A DNA stretch of 64,000 nucleotides, from NCBI RefSeq assembly GCF_002285415.1, contig NZ_NSBU01000007.1:1140583-1204582 (forward strand). Direction: 5' to 3'. A program made the translations under genes and the position numbers. This DNA is from Actibacterium pelagium. GTDB taxonomy: Bacteria; Pseudomonadota; Alphaproteobacteria; Rhodobacterales; Rhodobacteraceae. Under the pieces are notes generated by a model. It did no database searches, was not told where the DNA came from, and saw only the letters and a list, made by a program, of their open reading frames with translations. Position 1 is the stretch's first letter, and each line of letters begins with the position of its first letter. Positions 5,271-41,231 of this stretch are shown here, piece by piece.

Positions 5271-8200
5271 CCGGCATAATCGACTGGGCCTCTGGCCGCG
5301 CCCGCATGGTCGTGGCCTTTATCGTGCTATCGCTTCTGGCCGGCGCGATGGCCTACAGCAACCTGCCCAAAGAAGGTGAGCCGGACATCGAGATTCCGGC
5401 TCTGTTCATTTCTGTCCCCTTCCCCGGCATCTCTGCCGCAGACGCCGAGAAGCTGCTGATCAAACCAATGGAGACAGAGCTTTCAGACCTTGATGGCCTG
5501 AAGGAAATGAGCGCGACGGCGCAGGAGAACTATGCCGGTCTGGCGCTAGAGTTCGAATTTGGCTGGGACAAGACGAAGATCCTTGCCGATGTCCGCGACG
5601 CGATGAACACAGCCGAGGCAGAGTTCCCTTCGGGGGCAGAGAAATACTCGGTCAACGAGATCAACTTTTCCGAATTCCCGATCATCATCGTGAACCTGTC
5701 CGGTCCGGTTCCAGAACGGACTTTGCTGCGTGTTGCCAAGGACTTGCAAGACAAACTTGAAAGCCTTGAGCCCGTGTTAGAGGCCGGTCTTGCCGGACAT
5801 CGCGACGAGATGCTGGAAGTCATCATCGACCCCCTGCGGTTAGAGGCTTACAACGTCACCGCCGCAGAGCTAATCAATGTGGTCGTAAACAACAACCAAC
5901 TGATCGCGGCGGGTGAGGTAGAGACGGAACAGGGCGCCTATAGCGTGAAGATCCCGTCGTCCTTCGACGATGCGCGGGACGTCTATAACCTGCCGGTCAA
6001 AACCAACGGTGACCGCGTTATTACCCTTGGCGATCTTGCCGAGATCAACCTGACTTTTGAAGACCGAGAGGGCACCGCCCGGTTCAACGGCGACACCACA
6101 GTCGCGTTGCAAGTCGTCAAACGTAAAGGGTTCAACATCATCGACACCTCTGCCCTTGTGAAGCAAGAGGTCGAGAAGGTCCGCGCCACGTGGCCGCCTG
6201 AACTGCAGGCCGCCGTTAAGGTTGGCACCTCGATGGACCAGTCGCGCACGGTGGCCTCTATGGTCAGCCAGCTTGAAGGCTCTGTCCTGACGGCGATTGC
6301 ACTGGTGATGATCGTGGTACTGGCCTTTCTTGGCGCCCGGTCTGCGCTGTTGGTGGGCTTTGCGATCCCGACGTCCTTCCTGTTGTGTTTCGTTCTGCTT
6401 GGCCTGATCGGCGTGGCGATTTCGAACATTGTCATGTTCGGTCTGATCCTGGCCGTAGGTATGCTGGTCGATGGGGCAATCGTTGTCGTTGAATACGCCG
6501 ACCGCCGCATCAAGGAAGGTTCTGGCCCCATGCACGCCTTTACCGACGCGGCCAAGCGGATGTTCTGGCCCATCGTCAGTTCGACCGCCACAACGCTGTG
6601 TGCCTTTCTGCCGATGCTTTTCTGGCCGGGTGTACCGGGTGAGTTCATGGGCATGCTACCGGTCACCCTGATCTTCGTTCTGTCGGCCTCGCTGGTTGTC
6701 GCGCTGATTTACCTGCCGGTAATGGGCGGTGTCGCGGGCCGGTATTCCCGCGTGCTTGAAAATGCCGCGGACATTCTTAAACCGCTTCCTTGGCTCGTGC
6801 GGGCCTTGCTTGTCCCTGTTTCAATGGCAGTCCTTTTCACCGCCGTGATGCAGTTGTTGAACCCCGCCTACCTGACGGGCAAAGACATGGGGACCCCAAG
6901 CGTCGTTATTGGCGCAGTGCTGTTCCTTGTCGGTGCCTCGGCCACTTCGATCACCATGACCGCGGCCCAGATTCAACGTCGCCCGAAGTCCATCAAAGCA
7001 GGCTATCGCCGCTCGGTCTTTGGTCACGTCATCCACTTTGTCGCTGGCAATCCAATCATGCCGATCATCACTATCGGCGCTATTCTGTTCTTCGTCGTCA
7101 GCGTTTTTGGCTACTTCGGCAAGAACAACAACGGGGTCGAATTCTTCGTGGATTCCGAGCCAGAGCAGGCCATCGTCTATGTCCGCGCACGGGGCAACCT
7201 GTCGCTGAACGAGAAAGACAACATTCTGAAAGCGGCCGAGAAGATCGTTATTGCCCATCCGGGTGTCGACTCGACCTTTGCTTTTGCGGGCTCTGGCGGG
7301 TTGAACCAGAACACCGGTGGGGCGCAGCCCCCACTGGATACGGTCGGACAGGTTCAGTTCGAGCTGGTTCCATGGGAAGAACGTTCGGACAGACCCGATC
7401 TGGACGGCAATGTCGTGCTGAACGAGTTAGAGGCGGAATTACGTACCCTGCCCGGCATTCAGGTCGAGATCCTGTCGCAAGACCGGGGTCCGGCTTCTGC
7501 CAAGCCTGTTCATCTGCGACTGAAGGGGGATGACCTTGCGGTGCTGGAAGAAGGCATTCATCTGGCACGCTCGCAGTTCGACGCGACCCCTGCCCTTCGG
7601 GATATCGAAGACACGCTGCCCCTGCCCGGCATCGACTGGCAGATCGACGTGGACGTGGAAAAAGCTGGTCGCTACGGCGCGAACGTCGCCACCGTTGGCG
7701 GCATGGTGCAACTGGTCACCCGCGGCCTGTTGCTGGACACAATGCGCGTCGACAGTTCGGATGAAGAGATCGAAATCCGGGTGCGCCTGCCCGAAGAAGA
7801 CCGTGTATTGTCGACGCTGGACAGCCTGAAGGTGCGCACCGAAGACGGGCTGGTGCCGCTGTCAAACTTCATCTCGCGCACACCTGTGAAAAAGCTGGGG
7901 CGGATCACACGCGTCGATCAACAACGCTATTTTGATGTGAAGGCTGGTGTAGAAAGTGGCTGGTTCAAGCTGATGTCCGAAGACAGCAAGACACCTGTCG
8001 CCTATGCCTCGGCACAAGACGACAATGGCGTCCTGACCTTCTTGCCAGGCACAACTGAGACGGCTGATCTGCAACAAATGGTGGATGAGGGCGACCTGAA
8101 CCCGGTTCCCGTTACTCCGGCAGATCGGATCGAGTTACTGACCTCATGGCTGAATACCAATCCGCTGCCCGATGGGCTGACGTGGGAATGGACTGGCGAT

Positions 8201-19294: not shown

Positions 19295-20257
19295 ATGAGC
19301 TGGAACCCAACTCAGAACCCCGAATACCCCACTGCCAGTGCAGATGCGCTAGAGACCCTGATCATCCCGCGCGCCCGCGATATCGGCGGGTTCGAGGTAC
19401 GTCGCGCCCTGCCCAGCCCCAAGCGGCAGATGGTTGGCCCCTTCATCTTTTTCGATCAGGTGGGTCCGGCAGAGTTCATCACCGAAGGCGGAATCGACGT
19501 GCGCCCCCACCCGCATATCGGGTTGGGCACAGTGACCTACCTGTATCAAGGAGAGTTCGAGCACCGCGACAGCCTTGGCACGCGGCAGATGATCTATCCC
19601 GGAGAGGTCAACTGGATGGTCGCCGGACGCGGTGTGACCCATTCTGAACGGACCAGCGAGGAAACCCGCCACACCAGACATAAACTCTTTGGTGTCCAGA
19701 CATGGATCGCCCTGCCAGAAGACTGCGAGGACATGGCCCCTGACTTCGAGCATCACAAGAATGCCGCCCTGCCAGAGATCAAAGATGGGGGCGCACATGC
19801 CAAGCTGATCCTCGGCTCTGCCTATGGCGAGACCAGCCCAGTTACCATGCAGTCCGAGACCTTCTATGCCGACGTGATCCTGCAACCCGGTGCCTCTTTC
19901 CCCTTGCCCGATAATCACGAGGATCGCGGCATCTATGTGATGGAAGGCACGATCGACGTCGCCGGGGACGTGTTCGAGGCTGGGCGCATGATGGTGTTCC
20001 GTCCGGGCGATTCCATCAGCGCACGCGCAGGTGACCGCGGTGCCCGACTTATGGTGCTTGGCGGTGCCACGATGAACGAAGGCCGGTACATCTGGTGGAA
20101 CTTCGTCTCATCCGATCGCGACAAGATCGAAGCCGCCAAAGAGGCGTGGAAAGCCGAAGACTGGGAAAACGGCCAATTCCGCCTGCCCCCGGATGACGCA
20201 GGCGATCACATTCCGATCACACCAGAGATGGAGCGGCTTTTCCCGAAAAAGAAATAG
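19295..20257 (+). CDS. Pirin family protein (bicupin)
   Basis: The 320-residue product has the two cupin halves of bacterial pirins. The first holds the metal-binding pattern RPHPHIGLGTVTYL with later H-S-E-R (THSERTSEETR), matching the His/His/His/Glu iron site. The C-terminal part has GRYIWWNFVSS and the ending ITPEMERLFP common to proteobacterial pirins. Some pirins are quercetin 2,3-dioxygenases, others bind enzymes; the substrate here is unknown. AAGGA precedes the ATG. It converges on ychF with only six bases between the stops. Confidence 0.92.
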   Translation: MSWNPTQNPEYPTASADALETLIIPRARDIGGFEVRRALPSPKRQMVGPFIFFDQVGPAEFITEGGIDVRPHPHIGLGTVTYLYQGEFEHRDSLGTRQMIYPGEVNWMVAGRGVTHSERTSEETRHTRHKLFGVQTWIALPEDCEDMAPDFEHHKNAALPEIKDGGAHAKLILGSAYGETSPVTMQSETFYADVILQPGASFPLPDNHEDRGIYVMEGTIDVAGDVFEAGRMMVFRPGDSISARAGDRGARLMVLGGATMNEGRYIWWNFVSSDRDKIEAAKEAWKAEDWENGQFRLPPDDAGDHIPITPEMERLFPKKK

Positions 20258-20263
20258 GCTCGA

Positions 20264-21361
20264 TCAGGCGTTGAACAGGAAGTGCAGGACGTCACCGTCC
20301 TTCACCACATAGCTCTTGCCCTCGGCGCGCATCTTGCCGGCTTCTTTTGCACCCTGTTCACCGTCGTTGGCGACATAGTCGTCATAGGCGATGGTTTCAG
20401 CGCGGATGAAGCCGCGTTCAAAATCGCCGTGGATGACGCCAGCGGCCTGAGGGGCCAGCGCGCCGATCGGGATGGTCCAGGCACGGGCCTCTTTCGGGCC
20501 GACGGTGAAATAGGTTTGCAGACCCAAAAGCTCGTGACCTGCCCGGATCAGTCGATCAAGACCAGCTTCTTCCAGCCCCAACTCGCCAAGGAACATCTCG
20601 GCTTCTTCGGGCTCTAGCTGGCTGATTTCTTCTTCGATCTTGGCAGAGATTACGACGGCTGCTGCGCCCTGCTCTGCCGCCATCTTGGCGACCGCGTCGG
20701 AATGCGCATTGCCGGTGGCGGCTTCATCCTCGTCCACGTTGCAGACATACAGGATCGGCTTGGTGGTCAGCAGTTGCAGCATGTCCCACGCTTTTTTGTC
20801 TTCGTCGTCAACCTCGACGGCGCGGGCAGGTTTACCGTCTTCCAAAGCGGCCAAGGCGGTCTTCAAAAGACGTTCCTGCTGAACCGCTTCCTTGTCGCCA
20901 CCGCGCACCTTGCGAACGATGTTCTGCAGGCGCTTCTCGATCGACTCCATGTCGGCGATCATCAGTTCGGTTTCGATGGTCTCGGCGTCTTCGACCGGGT
21001 TCACGCGACCATCAACATGGGTCACGTCATCATCTTCGAAACAGCGCAGGACGTGGGCGATCGCGTCGCATTCGCGAATGTTGGCAAGGAACTGGTTGCC
21101 AAGGCCTTCGCCCTTCGACGCGCCTTTCACCAGACCGGCAATATCCACGAAGGTCATGCGCGAGGGGATGATCTGCTTCGACTGCGCAATCCCGGCCAGC
21201 GTGTCCAGACGCGGATCAGGAACGGCGACGTCGCCGACATTCGGCTCGATCGTACAGAACGGGAAATTCGCCGCCTGTGCGGCTGCGGTTTTGGTCAGCG
21301 CGTTGAACAAGGTCGATTTACCGACATTCGGAAGACCGACGATACCTGTTTTAAAACCCAT
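20264..21361 (-). CDS. ychF: Redox-regulated ATPase YchF
   Basis: The 365-residue product is an Obg-like P-loop protein that binds ATP in preference to GTP and associates with ribosomes. It shows the P-loop [14 protein letters not shown] (residues 8-21), DIAGLVKGAS, an internal coiled coil, and the C-terminal TGS domain ending VKDGDVLHFLFN. Length is standard. AGGAG lies ahead of the ATG. In E. coli YchF is tied to leaderless translation and the peroxide response; these roles are known for the family, not shown here. Confidence 0.97.
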   Translation of the reverse strand: MGFKTGIVGLPNVGKSTLFNALTKTAAAQAANFPFCTIEPNVGDVAVPDPRLDTLAGIAQSKQIIPSRMTFVDIAGLVKGASKGEGLGNQFLANIRECDAIAHVLRCFEDDDVTHVDGRVNPVEDAETIETELMIADMESIEKRLQNIVRKVRGGDKEAVQQERLLKTALAALEDGKPARAVEVDDEDKKAWDMLQLLTTKPILYVCNVDEDEAATGNAHSDAVAKMAAEQGAAAVVISAKIEEEISQLEPEEAEMFLGELGLEEAGLDRLIRAGHELLGLQTYFTVGPKEARAWTIPIGALAPQAAGVIHGDFERGFIRAETIAYDDYVANDGEQGAKEAGKMRAEGKSYVVKDGDVLHFLFNA

Positions 21362-21485
21362 TTTGCGCTCCTATCTGGCTTGCGATGCTCTTAGTCGCAG
21401 TGGCCGGGATGCACAAGACAATGCATGCCGCGACGGCGCGCAAATGTGCTAGGCTTGGGCCAGTTTTCAACCAAATGAGTTTCCC

Positions 21486-21896
21486 ATGCCCGTTCCCTAT
21501 ATTCACTTTGACACCGATTGCCGCGAGGCGATGACGTTTTACCAAGCCGTTTTTGGCGGCGAGCTGGAAATCATGGGCTACGACCAGATGCCCGACGCCC
21601 CGACCGAAATGGCGCAGTCGTCGAACGTCATGCACGCCACCCTGACCACCGATAAAGGGCCGCTTTTTGCCTCTGACGCTTTTCCCGGCACGTCTAACGC
21701 ACCGCAGGCTTCTGTATCGATCTCGTGGGATGTCGCCGACGCAGCCGAGGGCAAGGCCCTGTTCGAAAAGCTGATGTCCGAGGGTGGCGAAATCGTAATG
21801 CCCTTTGAAGCGACGTTCTTCGCCTCTGGCTTTGGCATGGGCAAGGACCGGTTCGGCACCCATTGGATGATCATGACCGGCGCAGAGGCCGAATAA
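21486..21896 (+). CDS. VOC family protein, PhnB/glyoxalase-like
   Basis: The 136-residue protein has paired beta-alpha-beta-beta-beta modules of the vicinal oxygen chelate fold and the PhnB-like opening (MPVPYIHFDTDCREAMTFYQAVFGGEL) and ending (FGMGKDRFGTHWMIM). Such proteins bind a metal and act as isomerases, dioxygenases or simple binding proteins; the substrate is not predictable. The ribosome site is weak. It stands between ychF (divergent) and trpA, which starts 68 bases later. Confidence 0.88.
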   Translation: MPVPYIHFDTDCREAMTFYQAVFGGELEIMGYDQMPDAPTEMAQSSNVMHATLTTDKGPLFASDAFPGTSNAPQASVSISWDVADAAEGKALFEKLMSEGGEIVMPFEATFFASGFGMGKDRFGTHWMIMTGAEAE

Positions 21897-21964
21897 GCAC
21901 AGACCCCCTTGCTCTTACGGGCTGTCTCTGGCACTTCCTTTCCTGATCGCAAAGGATGACCAAG

Positions 21965-22756
21965 ATGACCCGTATCGACGCCAAATTCGCCGCTCTGAAA
22001 GCTGAAGGTAAGAAAGCCTTCGTGGCCTATGTGATGGCGGGTGATCCCGATTACGACACCTCGCTGGAGGTTGTGAAAGGTCTGCCGGGTGCGGGTGTAG
22101 ACGTAATCGAACTGGGTCTGCCCTTCACCGACCCGATGGCCGACGGGCCGACCATTCAGCTGGCCGGTCAGCGTGCGCTGGAAGCGGGCCAGACGCTGGA
22201 CAAGACGCTGGCGATGGCCAAGGCCTTCCGCGAGAACGACGACACCACCCCGATTGTGATGATGGGCTATTACAACCCGATCTACAGCCGTGGCGTCCCC
22301 AAGTTCCTTGAGCAAGCGAAAGAAGCGGGCATCGACGGGCTTATCGTTGTCGACCTGCCCCCCGAGGAAGACCCCGAACTGTGCATCCCCGCGCAAGCGG
22401 CAGGTCTGAACTTCATCCGCCTTGCGACACCGACAACCGATGACAAACGTCTGCCGAAGGTTCTGCAGAACACATCGGGCTTTGTGTATTATGTCTCGAT
22501 CACCGGTATCACCGGCGCGGCCTCGGCTGAGGCGACGAACGTTGGCCCGGAAGTTGCGCGGATCAAGGCCTCTACCGACCTGCCGGTTATCGTTGGCTTC
22601 GGCATCAAAACCCCCGAGAACGCGCGCGACATCGCATCCGTCGCCGACGGCGCGGTTGTGGGCTCTGCCATCGTCAAGCTTATCGAAGAAGGTAAGCCGG
22701 TCGACGAGATCCTCGCCTACGTTAAATCTCTGGCCGATGGGGCGCATAGCGCCTGA
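21965..22756 (+). CDS. trpA: Tryptophan synthase alpha chain
   Basis: TrpA cleaves indole-3-glycerol phosphate to indole and glyceraldehyde 3-phosphate and passes indole to TrpB. The 263-residue TIM barrel has the catalytic Glu and Asp in [15 protein letters not shown] and the substrate loop [11 protein letters not shown]. Two ATGs compete: 21956 directly abuts AAAGG, while 21965 has AAAGGA eight bases upstream and is chosen. trpA is about 6.3 kb away from trpB, on the other strand, so the two subunits are not co-transcribed. Confidence 0.96.
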
Positions 22757-22813
22757 AGCAATTGCACTACGCCCCTCTGATTGGTAGCAAGACCTGACCA
22801 ATACGAGGGCCAC

Positions 22814-23977
22814 ATGCCAGTAATTACCTGTATCGAAGACCTGCACCGTATCTATAAGCGCCGTGTGCCAAAGATGTTCTATGACTATTGCGAAAGCGGT
22901 AGCTGGACAGAACAGACCTTCCGGGAAAACACTTCTGACTTTGACCAGATCCGACTGCGCCAGCGCGTCGCGGTCAATATGGAAAACCGTAGTACCGCCA
23001 GCCAGATGGCAGGACAGGATGTGTCCATGCCAGTTGCCTTGGCACCGGTGGGCTCCACAGGCATGCAGCACGCTGATGGAGAGATCAAAGCCGCCCGCGC
23101 GGCCGAGGCCTTTGGCGTGCCCTACACCTTGTCGACCATGTCTGTCTGCTCAATCGAGACCGTTGCCGCGGCGACCTCGAAGCCCTTCTGGTTTCAGCTT
23201 TATGTGATGCGGGACGAAGAATTTGCCGCAGCCCTTATCCAGCGAGCCAAGGACGCAAACTGTTCAGCTTTGGTCCTAACGCTGGATTTGCAGATTATTG
23301 GCCAACGCCACAAAGACCTAAAGAACGGGCTGACCACCCCGCCGAAACTAACCCTGCCCACCTTGATCGACATGGCGACGCATTGGCGGTGGGGGCTGGA
23401 AATGTTGCAGACGAAGAACCGGCAGTTCGGCAACATCGTCGGTCACGTGAAAGGTGTTGATGACATCAGCAACTTCACAAAATGGACGCGCAACCAGTAC
23501 GACCCGCGACTGGATTGGGACCGGATCCGCAAGATCCGCGCCCAGTGGGACGGCCCGCTGATCCTGAAAGGCATCCTTGACGTCGAAGATGCGAAGAAAG
23601 CAGTCGAGGTCGGGGCAGATGGCATCGTCGTGTCGAACCACGGCGGGCGGCAACTGGATGGGGCTCTGTCCACGATCCGCTCTTTGACACCGATCCTTGA
23701 TGCGGTCGGCGACAAGACAGAGGTTTATCTGGACAGCGGCATTCGCAAGGGTCAGGACGTCCTGAAAGCCTTGGCCATGGGGGCCAAAGGCACCTTTATC
23801 GGACGAGCCTACATCTATGGCCTAGGTGCCATGGGACAAACCGGGGTGACCACGGCACTTGAGGTGATCCAAAAAGAGCTGGACCTCAGCATGGCATTCT
23901 GCGGACGCCGGCAGGTGACCAACCTTGATCGGGATATTCTGCAAATCCCCAAAGGGTTTGAAGGGGATTGGCAGTAA
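22814..23977 (+). CDS. FMN-dependent alpha-hydroxy acid oxidase/dehydrogenase (L-lactate dehydrogenase or glycolate oxidase type)
   Basis: The 387-residue enzyme belongs to the FMN alpha-hydroxy acid oxidase family, which oxidises L-lactate, glycolate or related acids. It has the N-terminal FYDYCESGSWTEQT, FMN-binding ALAPVGSTGM, LILKGILDVEDA, and the catalytic SNHGGRQLDG. Inference from neighbours: lrgA starts on the last base of its stop (TAATG) and lrgB follows, so the enzyme is tied to an LrgAB-type carrier, whose plant homologue PLGG1 moves glycolate and glycerate. ATG at 22814 is preferred over the one at 22781 because GAGG precedes it and the product begins MPVITCIEDL. Lactate versus glycolate cannot be decided by reading. 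Confidence 0.93.
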   Translation: MPVITCIEDLHRIYKRRVPKMFYDYCESGSWTEQTFRENTSDFDQIRLRQRVAVNMENRSTASQMAGQDVSMPVALAPVGSTGMQHADGEIKAARAAEAFGVPYTLSTMSVCSIETVAAATSKPFWFQLYVMRDEEFAAALIQRAKDANCSALVLTLDLQIIGQRHKDLKNGLTTPPKLTLPTLIDMATHWRWGLEMLQTKNRQFGNIVGHVKGVDDISNFTKWTRNQYDPRLDWDRIRKIRAQWDGPLILKGILDVEDAKKAVEVGADGIVVSNHGGRQLDGALSTIRSLTPILDAVGDKTEVYLDSGIRKGQDVLKALAMGAKGTFIGRAYIYGLGAMGQTGVTTALEVIQKELDLSMAFCGRRQVTNLDRDILQIPKGFEGDWQ

Positions 23978-24333
23978 TGCTTGGTGCGCTGACCCTGATC
24001 TTTACCTGCCAGCTGATTGGTGAGACCACGACACGCGCACTAGACTTGCCCCTGCCCGGCCCAGTCGCGGGAATGGTCCTGCTGTTCATCTACCTGGCAG
24101 TCAGGGGCGGCATCTCGGCCGATATGTCCCGCGTGGCAGATGGGCTGCTATCGCACCTTGCCCTTCTGTTTGTTCCCGCGGGCGTCGGGGTCATGCTGCA
24201 CTTCCGGCTGCTAGGCGAAGAATGGCTGCCGATCGCGGTCGCTTTGATAGCAAGCACGGCCCTGACCATCGCCGTAACGGCCTGGGTCATGCACCTGCTC
24301 ACCCGCAAGTCAGGAGATCAGCCTGATGGATGA
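23977..24333 (+). CDS. lrgA: LrgA/CidA family membrane protein
   Basis: The 118-residue protein has four membrane helices and the family phrases LPLPGPVAGMVLL and LLFVPAGVGVM. LrgA/CidA proteins were first described as holin-like; later work links LrgAB to pyruvate uptake, and the plant fusion PLGG1 exports glycolate/glycerate. The ATG at 23977 shares its first base with the stop of the upstream oxidase gene, and AAGGGG lies about 10 bases upstream; an in-frame TTG at 23968 is less likely. It overlaps lrgB by eight bases. Confidence 0.92.
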   Translation: MLGALTLIFTCQLIGETTTRALDLPLPGPVAGMVLLFIYLAVRGGISADMSRVADGLLSHLALLFVPAGVGVMLHFRLLGEEWLPIAVALIASTALTIAVTAWVMHLLTRKSGDQPDG

Positions 24334-25042
24334 GCTTCAAGAGGTCTGGGTTTATCTGAACACCACCCCACTGCTGCACCTGACGCTGACACTACTGGCG
24401 TTTCAGGGGGCAAATTGGCTGTTTCGCAAATGCGGGCGTACGCCTTTGCTGAACCCGGTGATGGTATCGGTCGTGGTTCTTGTCGCCTTCCTGCTGATCA
24501 CTGGCACCAGCTACGGTGCCTATTTTGAAGGTGCGCAGTTCGTCCACTTCCTGCTTGGCCCGGCGACCGTTTGTCTGGCCATTCCGCTGTACCGTCAGTT
24601 CGAAAAGGTGCGCAAATCCGCGCTGGCCATTATGGCAAGCCTGTTTGTGGGCAGTCTGACGGCCATTGCCTCTGCCATCGGGATCGCAATGGCTCTTGGC
24701 GCCTCTCAGGCGACTTTGTCTTCCCTTGCGCCAAAATCCGTGACGGCCCCGGTCGCCATGGGCGTGACCGAACAGCTTGGCGGGCTGCCATCGTTGACGG
24801 CGGTTCTGGTGATCCTGACCGGCATTCTGGGGGCCATGATCGGGCCTGTCCTGCTGACAAAACTGGGCATTCGCAACGAAGCCGCCCGCGGATTTGCCAT
24901 CGGTACGGCCAGCCACGGGATCGGAACCGCACGCGCCCTGCAGCTTGGCGAGGTTTCTGGCGCTTTTGCCGGACTGGCCATGGGGCTGAACGCGCTGGCG
25001 ACGGCAATTTTGCTACCGCTGCTCTGGGGTCTGATTTTCTAG
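24326..25042 (+). CDS. lrgB: LrgB family membrane protein
   Basis: The 238-residue protein has six or more helices, the motif [17 protein letters not shown] and the C-terminal [13 protein letters not shown], both hallmarks of LrgB/PLGG1. AGGAG lies nine bases before the ATG. It is the last gene of the oxidase-lrgA-lrgB unit; a small hairpin (AGGGG AAA CCCCT) directly follows its stop and may end transcription. The pair probably forms one carrier in the inner membrane; the substrate is inferred from the enzyme beside it. Confidence 0.94.
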
Positions 25043-25072
25043 GGGAAACCCCTTCCCTTCCTGCCAATTCCC

Positions 25073-25119
25073 GTGTATGTGCGCGGCTTCAACCGGGCAT
25101 ACACCCTTGGAGGATGCCC
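25073..25119 (+). promoter_or_regulatory. rplY leader with two mutually exclusive stems
   Basis: GTGTATG (25073-25079) pairs with CATACAC (25098-25104), with an inner CGG/CCG pair. GGGCAT (25095-25100) can instead pair with ATGCCC (25114-25119). The two stems share CAT and cannot form together. The element ends about 20 bases before the rplY start. This is read from the bases; any regulatory role is inference. Confidence 0.4.
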
Positions 25120-25139
25120 ACTTATTTAGGAGAATAGCT

Positions 25140-25787
25140 ATGGCTGGTCAGATTCCTGACTTCAACGCCACGGTACGGACGGGGACAGGCAAGGGGGCCG
25201 CTCGTCAAGCACGCCGTGAAGAACTTGTCCCTGGTATCGTGTATGGCGGCGGCGCAGACCCGCTTCCGATCAACGTGAAATACAACGAGCTGTTTAAAGC
25301 TCTGAAAGACGGTCGCTTCCTTTCGACCCTGTGGAACCTGAAGGTCGAAGGCCAGGACGACGTGCGCGTCATCTGCCGCGGCGTTCAGCGTGACGTGGTA
25401 AAGGACCTGCCGACCCACGTTGATTTCATGCGCCTGAACCGTACCTCGCGCATCAACCTGTTCATTCCGGTTGAGTTCATCAACGAAGACGCAGCACCCG
25501 GCATCAAGAAGGGCGGCGTACTGAACACGGTTCGTCCGGAAGTCGAACTGAAAGTTACCGCAGGCGACATCCCCGAGAAGCTGGTTGCAGACCTGACCGG
25601 TCTGAATGTTGGCGACAACATCAACATCTCGGACATCGAACTGCCCGCAGGCTCGCGCCCGATGATCACCGACCGTGACTTCGTCATCGCGAACATCGCA
25701 GCGCCGTCTGGCCTGCGTTCGTCCGAGAACGAAGAAGGTGGCGAAGCCGAAGGCGAAGAAGCCGCAGCGGAAGAGACCGCAGAATAA
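25140..25787 (+). CDS. rplY: 50S ribosomal protein L25/general stress protein Ctc
   Basis: The 215-residue protein has the 5S rRNA-binding L25 domain (residues 5-95: [25 protein letters not shown]) and the C-terminal TL5/Ctc domain, as in the long bacterial form. The end is an acidic Glu/Ala tail ([15 protein letters not shown]), common in alphaproteobacteria. ATG at 25140 follows AGGAGAAT; the frame continues upstream to 25077 without a ribosome site. It is a single-gene unit with its own leader and a perfect terminator. Confidence 0.97.
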
Positions 25788-25813
25788 TCTGCTCTCTTTT
25801 ACCGCAAGAAAAG

Positions 25814-25833
25814 ATGGGGCCTTCGGGCCCCAT
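25814..25833. terminator. Bidirectional terminator between rplY and the FkbM gene
   Basis: ATGGGGCC and GGCCCCAT form a perfect 8-bp stem around a TTCG tetraloop. Minus-strand transcripts continue into CTTTTCTT; plus-strand ones into TATACTTT. It lies between two convergent genes and can serve both. Confidence 0.88.
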
Positions 25834-26513
25834 TATACTTTCTGGAAACAGACAATCTGCCCACGGCTGGCCTTGGGACAATACCCAAACCCCTGCCCCG
25901 ACAAGCGATCAAAGATTTGGCGCAGCGCATCTGGATCGTACTTGTTCGGATGAAGTTCCAGGATAATCAGGCGCAGAGTATCGGGCAGAGGCGCGTGGAA
26001 GAACTCTGTTTCAGCGCCCTCTACATCCGCCAACAACACAGTCGCCAACGTTTCGGCCAGCAGGCTTCCCAGCCCATAGGCCGTCACCGTGATTTCCCGC
26101 GCCTTAGGGTTTTCCGCCGCATCCAGCGACGCGGCCCAGAAAGCGGGTGTCAGAAAAAACTGACAGGTTCCGCCGGGCACCGGACTGTCCAGAACCGCAC
26201 CATTCAAAACGGTCACACCCTGCATCTGGTTTGCCTCCAGATTGGCTTTGATCACCGGGATCAACTCGGGGTTGGGCTCAACCGTCGTCACGGCCTCTGG
26301 CCCGACGATCCGCGCAGCCTGCACAGCCAAATAGCCAAGCCCCGTGCCTAGTTCTAGAACCCGGTCCTCAGCAACCAAATGGGCCTTCAGCGCGGCAGCC
26401 TCTTGCCCTTCGTACCGGCCCTCTGACAGGGCGGCCTCAATCTTGGGCGTCAGAAGAGCCTTGGGAATCTCTAGCGCAACGCCTTGCAGCTTAAAACTTA
26501 ATCCTCGTGACAC
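25833..26513 (-). CDS. FkbM family methyltransferase
   Basis: The product has the class I SAM-binding start VLELGTGLGYLAVQAAR, followed by VEPNPEL, and the FkbM-type ending LLADVEGAETEFFHA and LIILELHPNKYD. FkbM enzymes O-methylate sugars, polyketides or lipids; the target here is unknown. The frame remains open to a TTG at 26591, but no ribosome site is seen there and that region holds a likely pth promoter. GTG at 26513 (VSRGLSFKLQGV, 226 residues) is taken as start with modest confidence. It is divergent from pth. Confidence 0.82.
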   Translation of the reverse strand: MSRGLSFKLQGVALEIPKALLTPKIEAALSEGRYEGQEAAALKAHLVAEDRVLELGTGLGYLAVQAARIVGPEAVTTVEPNPELIPVIKANLEANQMQGVTVLNGAVLDSPVPGGTCQFFLTPAFWAASLDAAENPKAREITVTAYGLGSLLAETLATVLLADVEGAETEFFHAPLPDTLRLIILELHPNKYDPDALRQIFDRLSGQGFGYCPKASRGQIVCFQKV

Positions 26514-26608
26514 GGTGGAAATGCGCCCAGTAGTTCTATCTGATTTACCTATAATCCCCGTTCGCGCTAAGAACAGCAACGAGGCAATCAAAGTTTGAGG
26601 ACTATTCG

Positions 26609-27286
26609 TTGAAACTGTTCATCGGATTGGGAAATCCGGGCGCCAAATACGCCCGTAACCGACACAATATCGGCTTCATGGCGCTTGACCGCATTGCCGA
26701 GGACCACGGCTTTTCCCCTTGGCGCAGCAAATTTCAGGGGCTATTCAGCGAGGGCCGTCTGGGCAGCGAAAAGGTGATCCTGCTCAAGCCGGAAACCTTT
26801 ATGAACCGCTCGGGCCAATCGGCGGGTGAAGCGATGCGGTTCTTTAAGCTGGAACCCGAGGATCTGATCGTCTTCCATGACGAGCTTGATCTCGCCCCCG
26901 GCAAGTGCCGCTACAAACAGGGTGGCGGTCACGCGGGCCATAACGGGTTGCGGTCGATCCATGGGCACGTGGGCGAAGCCTATGGTCGCGTGCGCCTTGG
27001 CATCGGGCATCCGGGGCACAAGGACAAAGTTGCGTCTTATGTGCTGAACGACTTTCCAAAGGCCGATCAGGACTGGCTGGACGATCTGATCCGCGGCATC
27101 AGCGATGGCGCCGCAGAACTGGCGCAAGGTGACACCGGCCGCTTCATGAACGCGGTTGCGTTGCGCGTGGCCCCGCCCCGCAGTTCGACCAGCAAACCGG
27201 CCAAGACCACCAAACCGAAAGAGCCGAAACCAGAGTCCGAAGATACGCGCAGCCCGATGCAGAAACTGATGGATAAGTTCAAATGA
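26609..27286 (+). CDS. pth: Peptidyl-tRNA hydrolase
   Basis: Pth recycles peptidyl-tRNA released from stalled ribosomes. The 225-residue enzyme has the full active-site set: FIGLGNPGAKYARNRHNIGF with the catalytic His near residue 19, MNRSG, FHDELDLAPG with the Asp, and GGGHAGHNGLRSI. The start codon is TTG, with GAGG eight bases upstream; no ATG fits this N-terminus. A TATAAT at 26550-26555 may be its -10 box. The C-terminus has an extra Lys/Pro-rich tail (about 35 residues) beyond the E. coli enzyme. Its stop overlaps the next gene by four bases (ATGA). Confidence 0.96.
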   Translation: MKLFIGLGNPGAKYARNRHNIGFMALDRIAEDHGFSPWRSKFQGLFSEGRLGSEKVILLKPETFMNRSGQSAGEAMRFFKLEPEDLIVFHDELDLAPGKCRYKQGGGHAGHNGLRSIHGHVGEAYGRVRLGIGHPGHKDKVASYVLNDFPKADQDWLDDLIRGISDGAAELAQGDTGRFMNAVALRVAPPRSSTSKPAKTTKPKEPKPESEDTRSPMQKLMDKFK

Positions 27287-41147: not shown

Positions 41148-41194
41148 TGCTCCATTAGGGTTATCCCCGCCACGTCAGGAAGCCGTTGTGGCGG
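41148..41194 (-). promoter_or_regulatory. SAM/SAH riboswitch upstream of metK
   Basis: Read on the minus strand, the segment is CCGCC followed by ACAACGGCTTCCTGACGT and GGCGG, then a short linker and TGGAGCA six bases before the metK ATG. The core ACAACGGCUUCCUGRCGU with flanking complementary arms and the trailing UGGAGCA matches the published SAM/SAH riboswitch consensus, which folds as a pseudoknot using the ribosome site. The class is known mainly upstream of metK in Rhodobacterales. Match was made by eye, not by covariance model. Confidence 0.92.
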
Positions 41195-41231
41195 TTTGTT
41201 CAAGCGGGCTTACGCGCGTGTTAGCACGCGG

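Follow-up and report, generated by a model that had tools for sequence, protein, structure and literature searches.

An lldD-lrgA-lrgB gene cluster in Actibacterium pelagium and its possible role in L-lactate metabolism

The window analysed here is a 64,000-nucleotide stretch of the Actibacterium pelagium genome (contig NZ_NSBU01000007.1, positions 1,140,583 to 1,204,582), in which lldD, a gene for an FMN-dependent 2-hydroxy-acid dehydrogenase, is followed directly by the gene pair lrgA and lrgB. The three genes have intact reading frames, lie in one orientation and overlap: the lldD TAA codon (ending at 23977) and the lrgA ATG (23977) have one base in common, and lrgA and lrgB overlap by eight bases, with the lrgB ATG at 24326. 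A preliminary description of this DNA gave the same three genes, the same TAATG junction and the same lrgA/lrgB overlap, and all of these are confirmed in the sequence. The starts of all three genes are consistent with those of their homologues, and the Pfam matches are far above their cut-offs. The features are as follows.

22814-23977, + strand: lldD, likely FMN-dependent L-lactate (2-hydroxy acid) dehydrogenase, membrane type by alignment (Pfam FMN_dh, 446.8 bits; PRK11197; catalytic residues; Met109)
23977-24333, + strand: lrgA, putative small membrane partner in the carrier (Pfam LrgA, 100 bits against a cut-off of 28)
24326-25042, + strand: lrgB, putative main membrane subunit of the carrier (Pfam LrgB, 277.9 bits against a cut-off of 25; alignment)
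23975-23979, + strand: TAATG, overlap of the lldD stop and the lrgA start (sequence)

LldD scores above the cut-off of the NCBIfam L-lactate dehydrogenase model NF008398/PRK11197 (429.4 bits, cut-off 376) and below that for LldD sensu stricto (NF033901; 371.5 bits, cut-off 550). Residues Y23, Y130, D158, K252, H276 and R279 align with the catalytic pattern of FMN 2-hydroxy-acid dehydrogenases, which we take to be Tyr24, Tyr129, Asp157, Lys230, His254 and Arg257 of glycolate oxidase. Across LldD and 29 aligned relatives, the top scorers of the family search, these residues are identical in all 30 sequences save at position 23, which is Tyr in 26 and Phe in 4. The segment from about residue 172 to 230 aligns to (S)-mandelate dehydrogenase (6bfg) with a single two-residue gap, whereas long gaps are required to align it to glycolate oxidase (5zbm). 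In enzymes of the LldD/mandelate dehydrogenase membrane type a long membrane-binding loop replaces the short soluble loop, and these enzymes are membrane-bound and quinone-linked; the loop alignment places LldD in this type, presumably with quinone as its acceptor. Because of its family, its residues and its loop, LldD is likely to be a membrane-bound L-lactate dehydrogenase.

The preliminary description favoured algal glycolate as the substrate of a unit that imports and oxidises it. Plant and human glycolate oxidases (GOX/HAO1) carry a Trp at the position of Met109 in LldD, and Met is present in all 29 orthologues. This Trp is one of three residues that mark a preference for glycolate over lactate, with Leu or Val in the lactate enzymes (PMC7020209, Table 2), and it is the one of the three whose position was mapped in LldD. 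The genome also encodes an adjacent glcD-glcE-glcF set on contig C4 (GlcF, 461 bits against an NCBIfam cut-off of 333; GlcE and GlcD are best matches that fall short of their cut-offs, at 259 against 284 and 530 against 897). No lrgAB accompanies this set, the genome's single LrgB being the one in the window, and deletion of glcDEF in Paracoccus denitrificans is reported to abolish growth on glycolate (PMC11323563). A second FMN_dh gene (G000:C4:873514-874641) is 33% identical to the window LldD and, with a score of 294, does not reach the cut-off of 376 for L-lactate dehydrogenase. Both Met109 and the separate glcDEF set argue against glycolate, which is unlikely to be the main substrate of LldD. 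The order glcF-lrgA-lrgB at two Hydrogenophaga loci, described below, suggests that glycolate may be a cargo of some bacterial LrgAB pairs, but a glycolate import-and-oxidation unit at the window locus itself is distinctly unlikely.

Both LrgA and LrgB are members of the LrgA/LrgB (CidA/CidB) families, with scores over the Pfam gathering thresholds and two adjacent genes; LrgB falls below the cut-off of the CidB/LrgB equivalog model (TIGR00659; 233.7 bits, cut-off 249.7), and the pair is encoded by two open reading frames rather than by a PLGG1-type fusion. Relatives have been characterised in several bacteria. PftAB of Bacillus subtilis is a facilitated pyruvate transporter (PMC5626966), lrgAB of Staphylococcus aureus is required for microaerobic use of pyruvate (PMC8805020), and its overexpression rescued growth both on pyruvate and on lactate of an S. 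aureus mutant in four transporter loci (PMC12632267); in addition, Escherichia coli YohJK is reported to lower intracellular 3-hydroxypropionate (PMC7642389). These reports bear out the earlier suggestion that LrgAB-type proteins are small-acid carriers. By analogy, a small-acid carrier is a sound choice as the best role for LrgAB, and the pair would act as a facilitative carrier of small monocarboxylates. S. aureus CidA and LrgA have been reported as functional holins (PMC8805020), and the pair could in principle be a holin/antiholin-like system controlling lysis and unrelated to metabolism. This is highly improbable, however: B. subtilis, S. aureus and S. mutans all show phenotypes in pyruvate transport (PMC5626966, PMC8805020), and no lysis gene was found among the nine proteins of the scanned region.

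Several known systems resemble the window locus in part. One of them involves CidC, a membrane-associated flavoenzyme that converts pyruvate to acetate and is, to our knowledge, not homologous to LldD. The S. aureus cidABC operon unites an Lrg-type pair with this quinone-feeding enzyme of the pyruvate node (a pyruvate:menaquinone oxidoreductase; PMC8805020), but its enzyme gene comes last, and the window enzyme would use lactate to form pyruvate. The same two protein families in the same two-gene layout are found in PftAB (YsbAB) of B. subtilis and LrgAB of S. aureus; these are controlled by LytST/LytSR (PMC5626966), whereas the window pair overlaps lldD. Pseudomonas aeruginosa lldPDE likewise has an L-lactate dehydrogenase gene and a carrier gene in one operon (PMC11389411), although the carrier is the LldP permease, from a Pfam family without a match in this genome. 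The plant plastid protein PLGG1 shows relatives of LrgA and LrgB serving as an acid carrier, but it is probably a fusion of lrgA and lrgB (PMC5626966), carries glycolate and glycerate, and acts in the chloroplast.

The surroundings of lldD in relatives indicate how the arrangement came about. With short flanks, the top 30 lldD loci (own included) have trpA upstream in 15, a convergent MFS gene 3' of lldD in 14 and rplY in 11. In 20 loci with wider flanks, some on contigs that end early, trpA is upstream on the same strand in 15 and rplY downstream in 11, and lrgAB is present in none. Five relatives (L098, L100, L108, L114 and L118) have rplY 59-278 bp 3' of lldD with neither the MFS gene nor lrgAB between them. 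lldD is therefore part of an older block, trpA-lldD-(MFS or nothing)-rplY-pth, whose members in the window are listed below together with the hairpin that follows rplY. The rplY start was set at MAGQIPDF, matching relatives, and pth follows rplY downstream of lrgB (Pfam, NCBIfam).

21956-22756, + strand: trpA, tryptophan synthase alpha chain, 5' neighbour in the older block (Pfam Trp_syntA, 321 bits; TIGR00262, 270 against a cut-off of 102)
25140-25787, + strand: rplY (bL25), 3' member of the older block (Pfam and NCBIfam matches over 25077-25787; synteny; leaders)
25813-25834, + strand: terminator-like hairpin 3' of rplY, the strongest in a scan of 20200-26700

The window lldD ends at nearly the same residue as its relatives (...DWQ, compared with ...WQA in L098 and L100), and the junction is therefore at the lldD stop. 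On the other side of it, the 20 nearest LrgB relatives with called neighbours (66-76% identical) follow an opposite-strand gene in 10 cases and, in 8, a gene on their own strand that is 56-654 bp away, with no upstream gene called in 2; lldD adjoins lrgB in none of them. In a midpoint-rooted tree of 195 LrgB sequences, in which we leave deeper nodes uninterpreted, the window LrgB clusters with those of L060 (76% identical) and L142 with a support of 0.88. Since the lldD block lacks lrgAB in relatives, the simplest account is that lrgAB arrived behind an lldD that was already in place, and we consider it very probable that this bicistron, patchy in the family, was captured there. The G+C content (0.619 for lrgA, 0.601 for lrgB, 0.57-0.60 for the neighbours) gives no sharp signal, and a foreign origin was not upheld on composition. 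The best match in this genome to the convergent MFS gene found in 14 of the 30 lldD loci is merely 28% identical; nonetheless we do not claim that LrgAB functionally replaced it as a carrier, and in six of the eight wider loci holding both genes the MFS gene is at most about 360 bp from rplY and divergent from it.

A promoter scan of 20200-26700 found no sigma-70-type promoter, and terminator-like sites in the same region are near chance (10 against 7.4 expected), with weaker ones inside lldD and lrgB. A single transcript trpA-lldD-lrgA-lrgB-rplY is plausible from this layout. It is not unusual for lrgAB to lie tightly behind the gene before it. Upstream neighbours were called in 186 cases at other lrgB loci; 115 of them share the strand of lrgAB, and among these 115 the gap is below 60 bp in 44 cases and below 10 bp in 14 (the gene caller used for neighbours was a crude codon score, and some starts are misplaced). 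Many of these neighbours are unrelated genes.

We tentatively suggest, with somewhat less than even confidence, that LldD and LrgAB are functionally coupled as a possible unit for L-lactate uptake and pyruvate exchange. In such a unit lrgAB, placed in the lldD-rplY gap and overlapping lldD, would supply the carrier through which L-lactate is taken up; LldD would oxidise it to pyruvate at the membrane, and the pyruvate might be exchanged or released. No match to an LctP/LldP-type permease (PF02652) was found in this genome, so lactate would need another carrier.

A series of observations weighs against this coupling. The genome encodes an SSF symporter of the VC_2705 family, which might serve small acids instead. 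From the published work, growth on lactate is reported as unaltered in an S. aureus lrgA mutant (PMC8805020), pyruvate uptake by S. aureus as barely subject to competition from excess lactate (PMC12632267), and PftAB of B. subtilis is termed pyruvate-specific (PMC5626966). Rhodobium orientis (L153:2904-6708) has rplY-pth-ychF-lrgA-lrgB on one strand, which places lrgAB next to housekeeping genes that also flank it in the window, but with no lldD. Among 198 genomes sampled from the family (LldD counted at E <= 1e-100, LrgB over its cut-off), LldD is encoded by 179, most of them without LrgB, which is found in 50; LldD therefore does not need LrgAB. There is no co-occurrence of the two, LldD being present in 47 of 50 genomes with LrgB and 132 of 148 without (Fisher p=0.41; own genome counted).

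The neighbourhoods of lrgB point the same way. The survey of lrgB flanks covered 51 family loci, the best 80 of 567 GTDB loci, 69 class entries (3 repeats) and 54 order or nearest-relative entries (many repeats); 250 loci were entered and 223 distinct ones remained after removal of repeats by LrgB sequence, with flanks of about 1.5 to 6 kb, shorter at contig ends and in many loci only 1.5 kb each side. Fragments in G413 and G484, four sub-cut-off matches and about 50 places without loci were left out. Neither LldD nor its paralogue was found in the lrgB flanks of any of the 223 distinct other loci, among samples that include no second genome of Actibacterium. Hydroxy-acid enzymes are not enriched next to lrgAB (4 of 423 adjacent genes against 14 of 1171 further ones, p=0.79; one of the four, at L181, is a distant case), and the recurrent neighbours elsewhere, named by eye, are LysR and MarR regulators, dCTP deaminase, an ATPase, cobalamin adenosyltransferase and acetyltransferases, which give no pointer to hydroxy acids. 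We therefore reject a conserved lldD-lrgAB partnership on the family, order, class, nearest-relative and GTDB samples. The pairing is also absent from the titles and abstract openings searched, which does not establish its absence from print. As far as sampled, this is a lineage-specific, operon-like arrangement that looks like a one-off rather than a conserved machine for glycolate import. The preliminary description gave lack of conservation among relatives as grounds for refutation, and on that measure its specific claim fails at this depth of sampling. Of the import-plus-oxidation unit that it proposed, the overlapping co-oriented genes and the carrier role are supported, conservation in relatives is not, and glycolate as substrate is disfavoured.

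A pairing seen once may also be an accident, with lrgAB hitch-hiking behind lldD, expressed by read-through and performing a job unrelated to LldD, such as overflow of pyruvate or another acid. A rough calculation, assuming two FMN_dh genes and 3400 genes per genome, gives about 0.26 lrgAB/FMN_dh adjacencies expected by chance over the 223 loci and a probability of 0.23 for at least one. lrgAB is often found close behind unrelated genes, and in relatives further genes have also been inserted among trpA, lldD and rplY. However, the overlap leaves lrgA without space for an intergenic promoter, so that translation of lrgA, and probably also its expression, is tied to lldD, and the substrate and product of LldD coincide with reported LrgAB cargoes. 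We regard chance placement as nearly as likely as the functional coupling of LldD and LrgAB.

Other lrgAB pairs lie beside genes for hydroxy-acid enzymes. One Hydrogenophaga locus (L191:3056-6717) reads glcE-glcF-lrgA-lrgB, where glcF runs to 5424 and lrgA begins at 5621; in another (L195:836-3110), whose sequence opens at a contig end 5' of glcF, the order is glcF-lrgA-lrgB and glcF and lrgA overlap in ATGA. By NCBIfam, GlcE of L191 scores 486 against a cut-off of 284, and GlcF of L191 and L195 score 688 and 655 against one of 333. As in the window, lrgAB is directly 3' of a gene for an enzyme oxidising a 2-hydroxy acid, but at these two loci that enzyme is glycolate oxidase, which is unrelated to LldD. 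Both loci are candidate operons for glycolate oxidase and a carrier; a literature search combining glycolate oxidase, LrgB and glcF found no paper. On a Roseomonas marmotae plasmid (L356:3631-5741), one of 9 plasmid LrgB loci inspected out of 144 matching records, lrgA-lrgB is followed 31 bp on by a same-strand gene annotated as a 2-hydroxyacid dehydrogenase. In a Chloroflexi locus (L196) the gene just 5' of lrgA was judged by eye to encode a GarR-like reductase. Also by eye, a GarR-like gene is present on the opposite strand about 540-750 bp from lrgAB at nine loci (L170, L173, L204, L213, L216, L226, L250, L331 and L332), in several of which a MarR-like gene is located between the two. The Hydrogenophaga, Roseomonas and Chloroflexi leads are few and were selected after the fact; given such leads, a role for LrgAB as a 2-hydroxy-acid carrier is worth testing.

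Two RNA elements were also noted in the window. A hairpin at 25095-25119 (+ strand), 5' of rplY, has the stem GGGCAT/ATGCCC and the invariant loop letters CA.CCTTGGAGG, and the loop is near-invariant among rplY leaders (ACACCCTTGGAGG). The core CTTGGAG is found in 20 of 22 leader rows, window included (one row is a repeat), and is missing from L108 and L283. The six-pair stem forms in 91.7% of cells over 18 of the 22 rows, the same 18 sequences from which it was derived (four rows were dropped: L108 and L283 because they lack the motif, L281 because it repeats L098, and L105 inadvertently), with compensatory changes at five of the six pairs; control stems shifted by one to three columns form in 35-50%. 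Rfam gave no match at the gathering score, and a permissive search returned only a chance-level microRNA (E 4.6). Enterobacteria have a known L25 leader (PMC7247131), and the hairpin is a candidate ribosomal-protein leader without an Rfam family. A SAM/SAH riboswitch aptamer (Rfam RF01727, 64.7 bits) is located at 41148-41197 (- strand).

A broader reading of the lldD-lrgAB locus is that LrgAB acts as a lactate/pyruvate exchanger, with lactate moving in, electrons passing to quinone and pyruvate moving out, and that LrgAB is a general facilitator of 2-hydroxy and 2-oxo acids repeatedly wired to unrelated hydroxy-acid enzymes. We think this rather unlikely. If the exchange were real, lactate would fuel the cell as an electron donor with no need to feed its carbon into the cell; the cases for a general facilitator would be LldD here, glycolate oxidase in Hydrogenophaga and the 2-hydroxyacid dehydrogenase in Roseomonas. 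The stake of the window locus alone is modest, because relatives manage with LldD and without LrgAB, and whether bacterial LrgAB transports glycolate is arguably better tested at the Hydrogenophaga glcF-lrgAB loci. Annotations, NCBIfam names among them, still often present LrgAB as a lysis modulator, and operons tying it to lactate or glycolate oxidation offer clean, testable cases of a carrier role.
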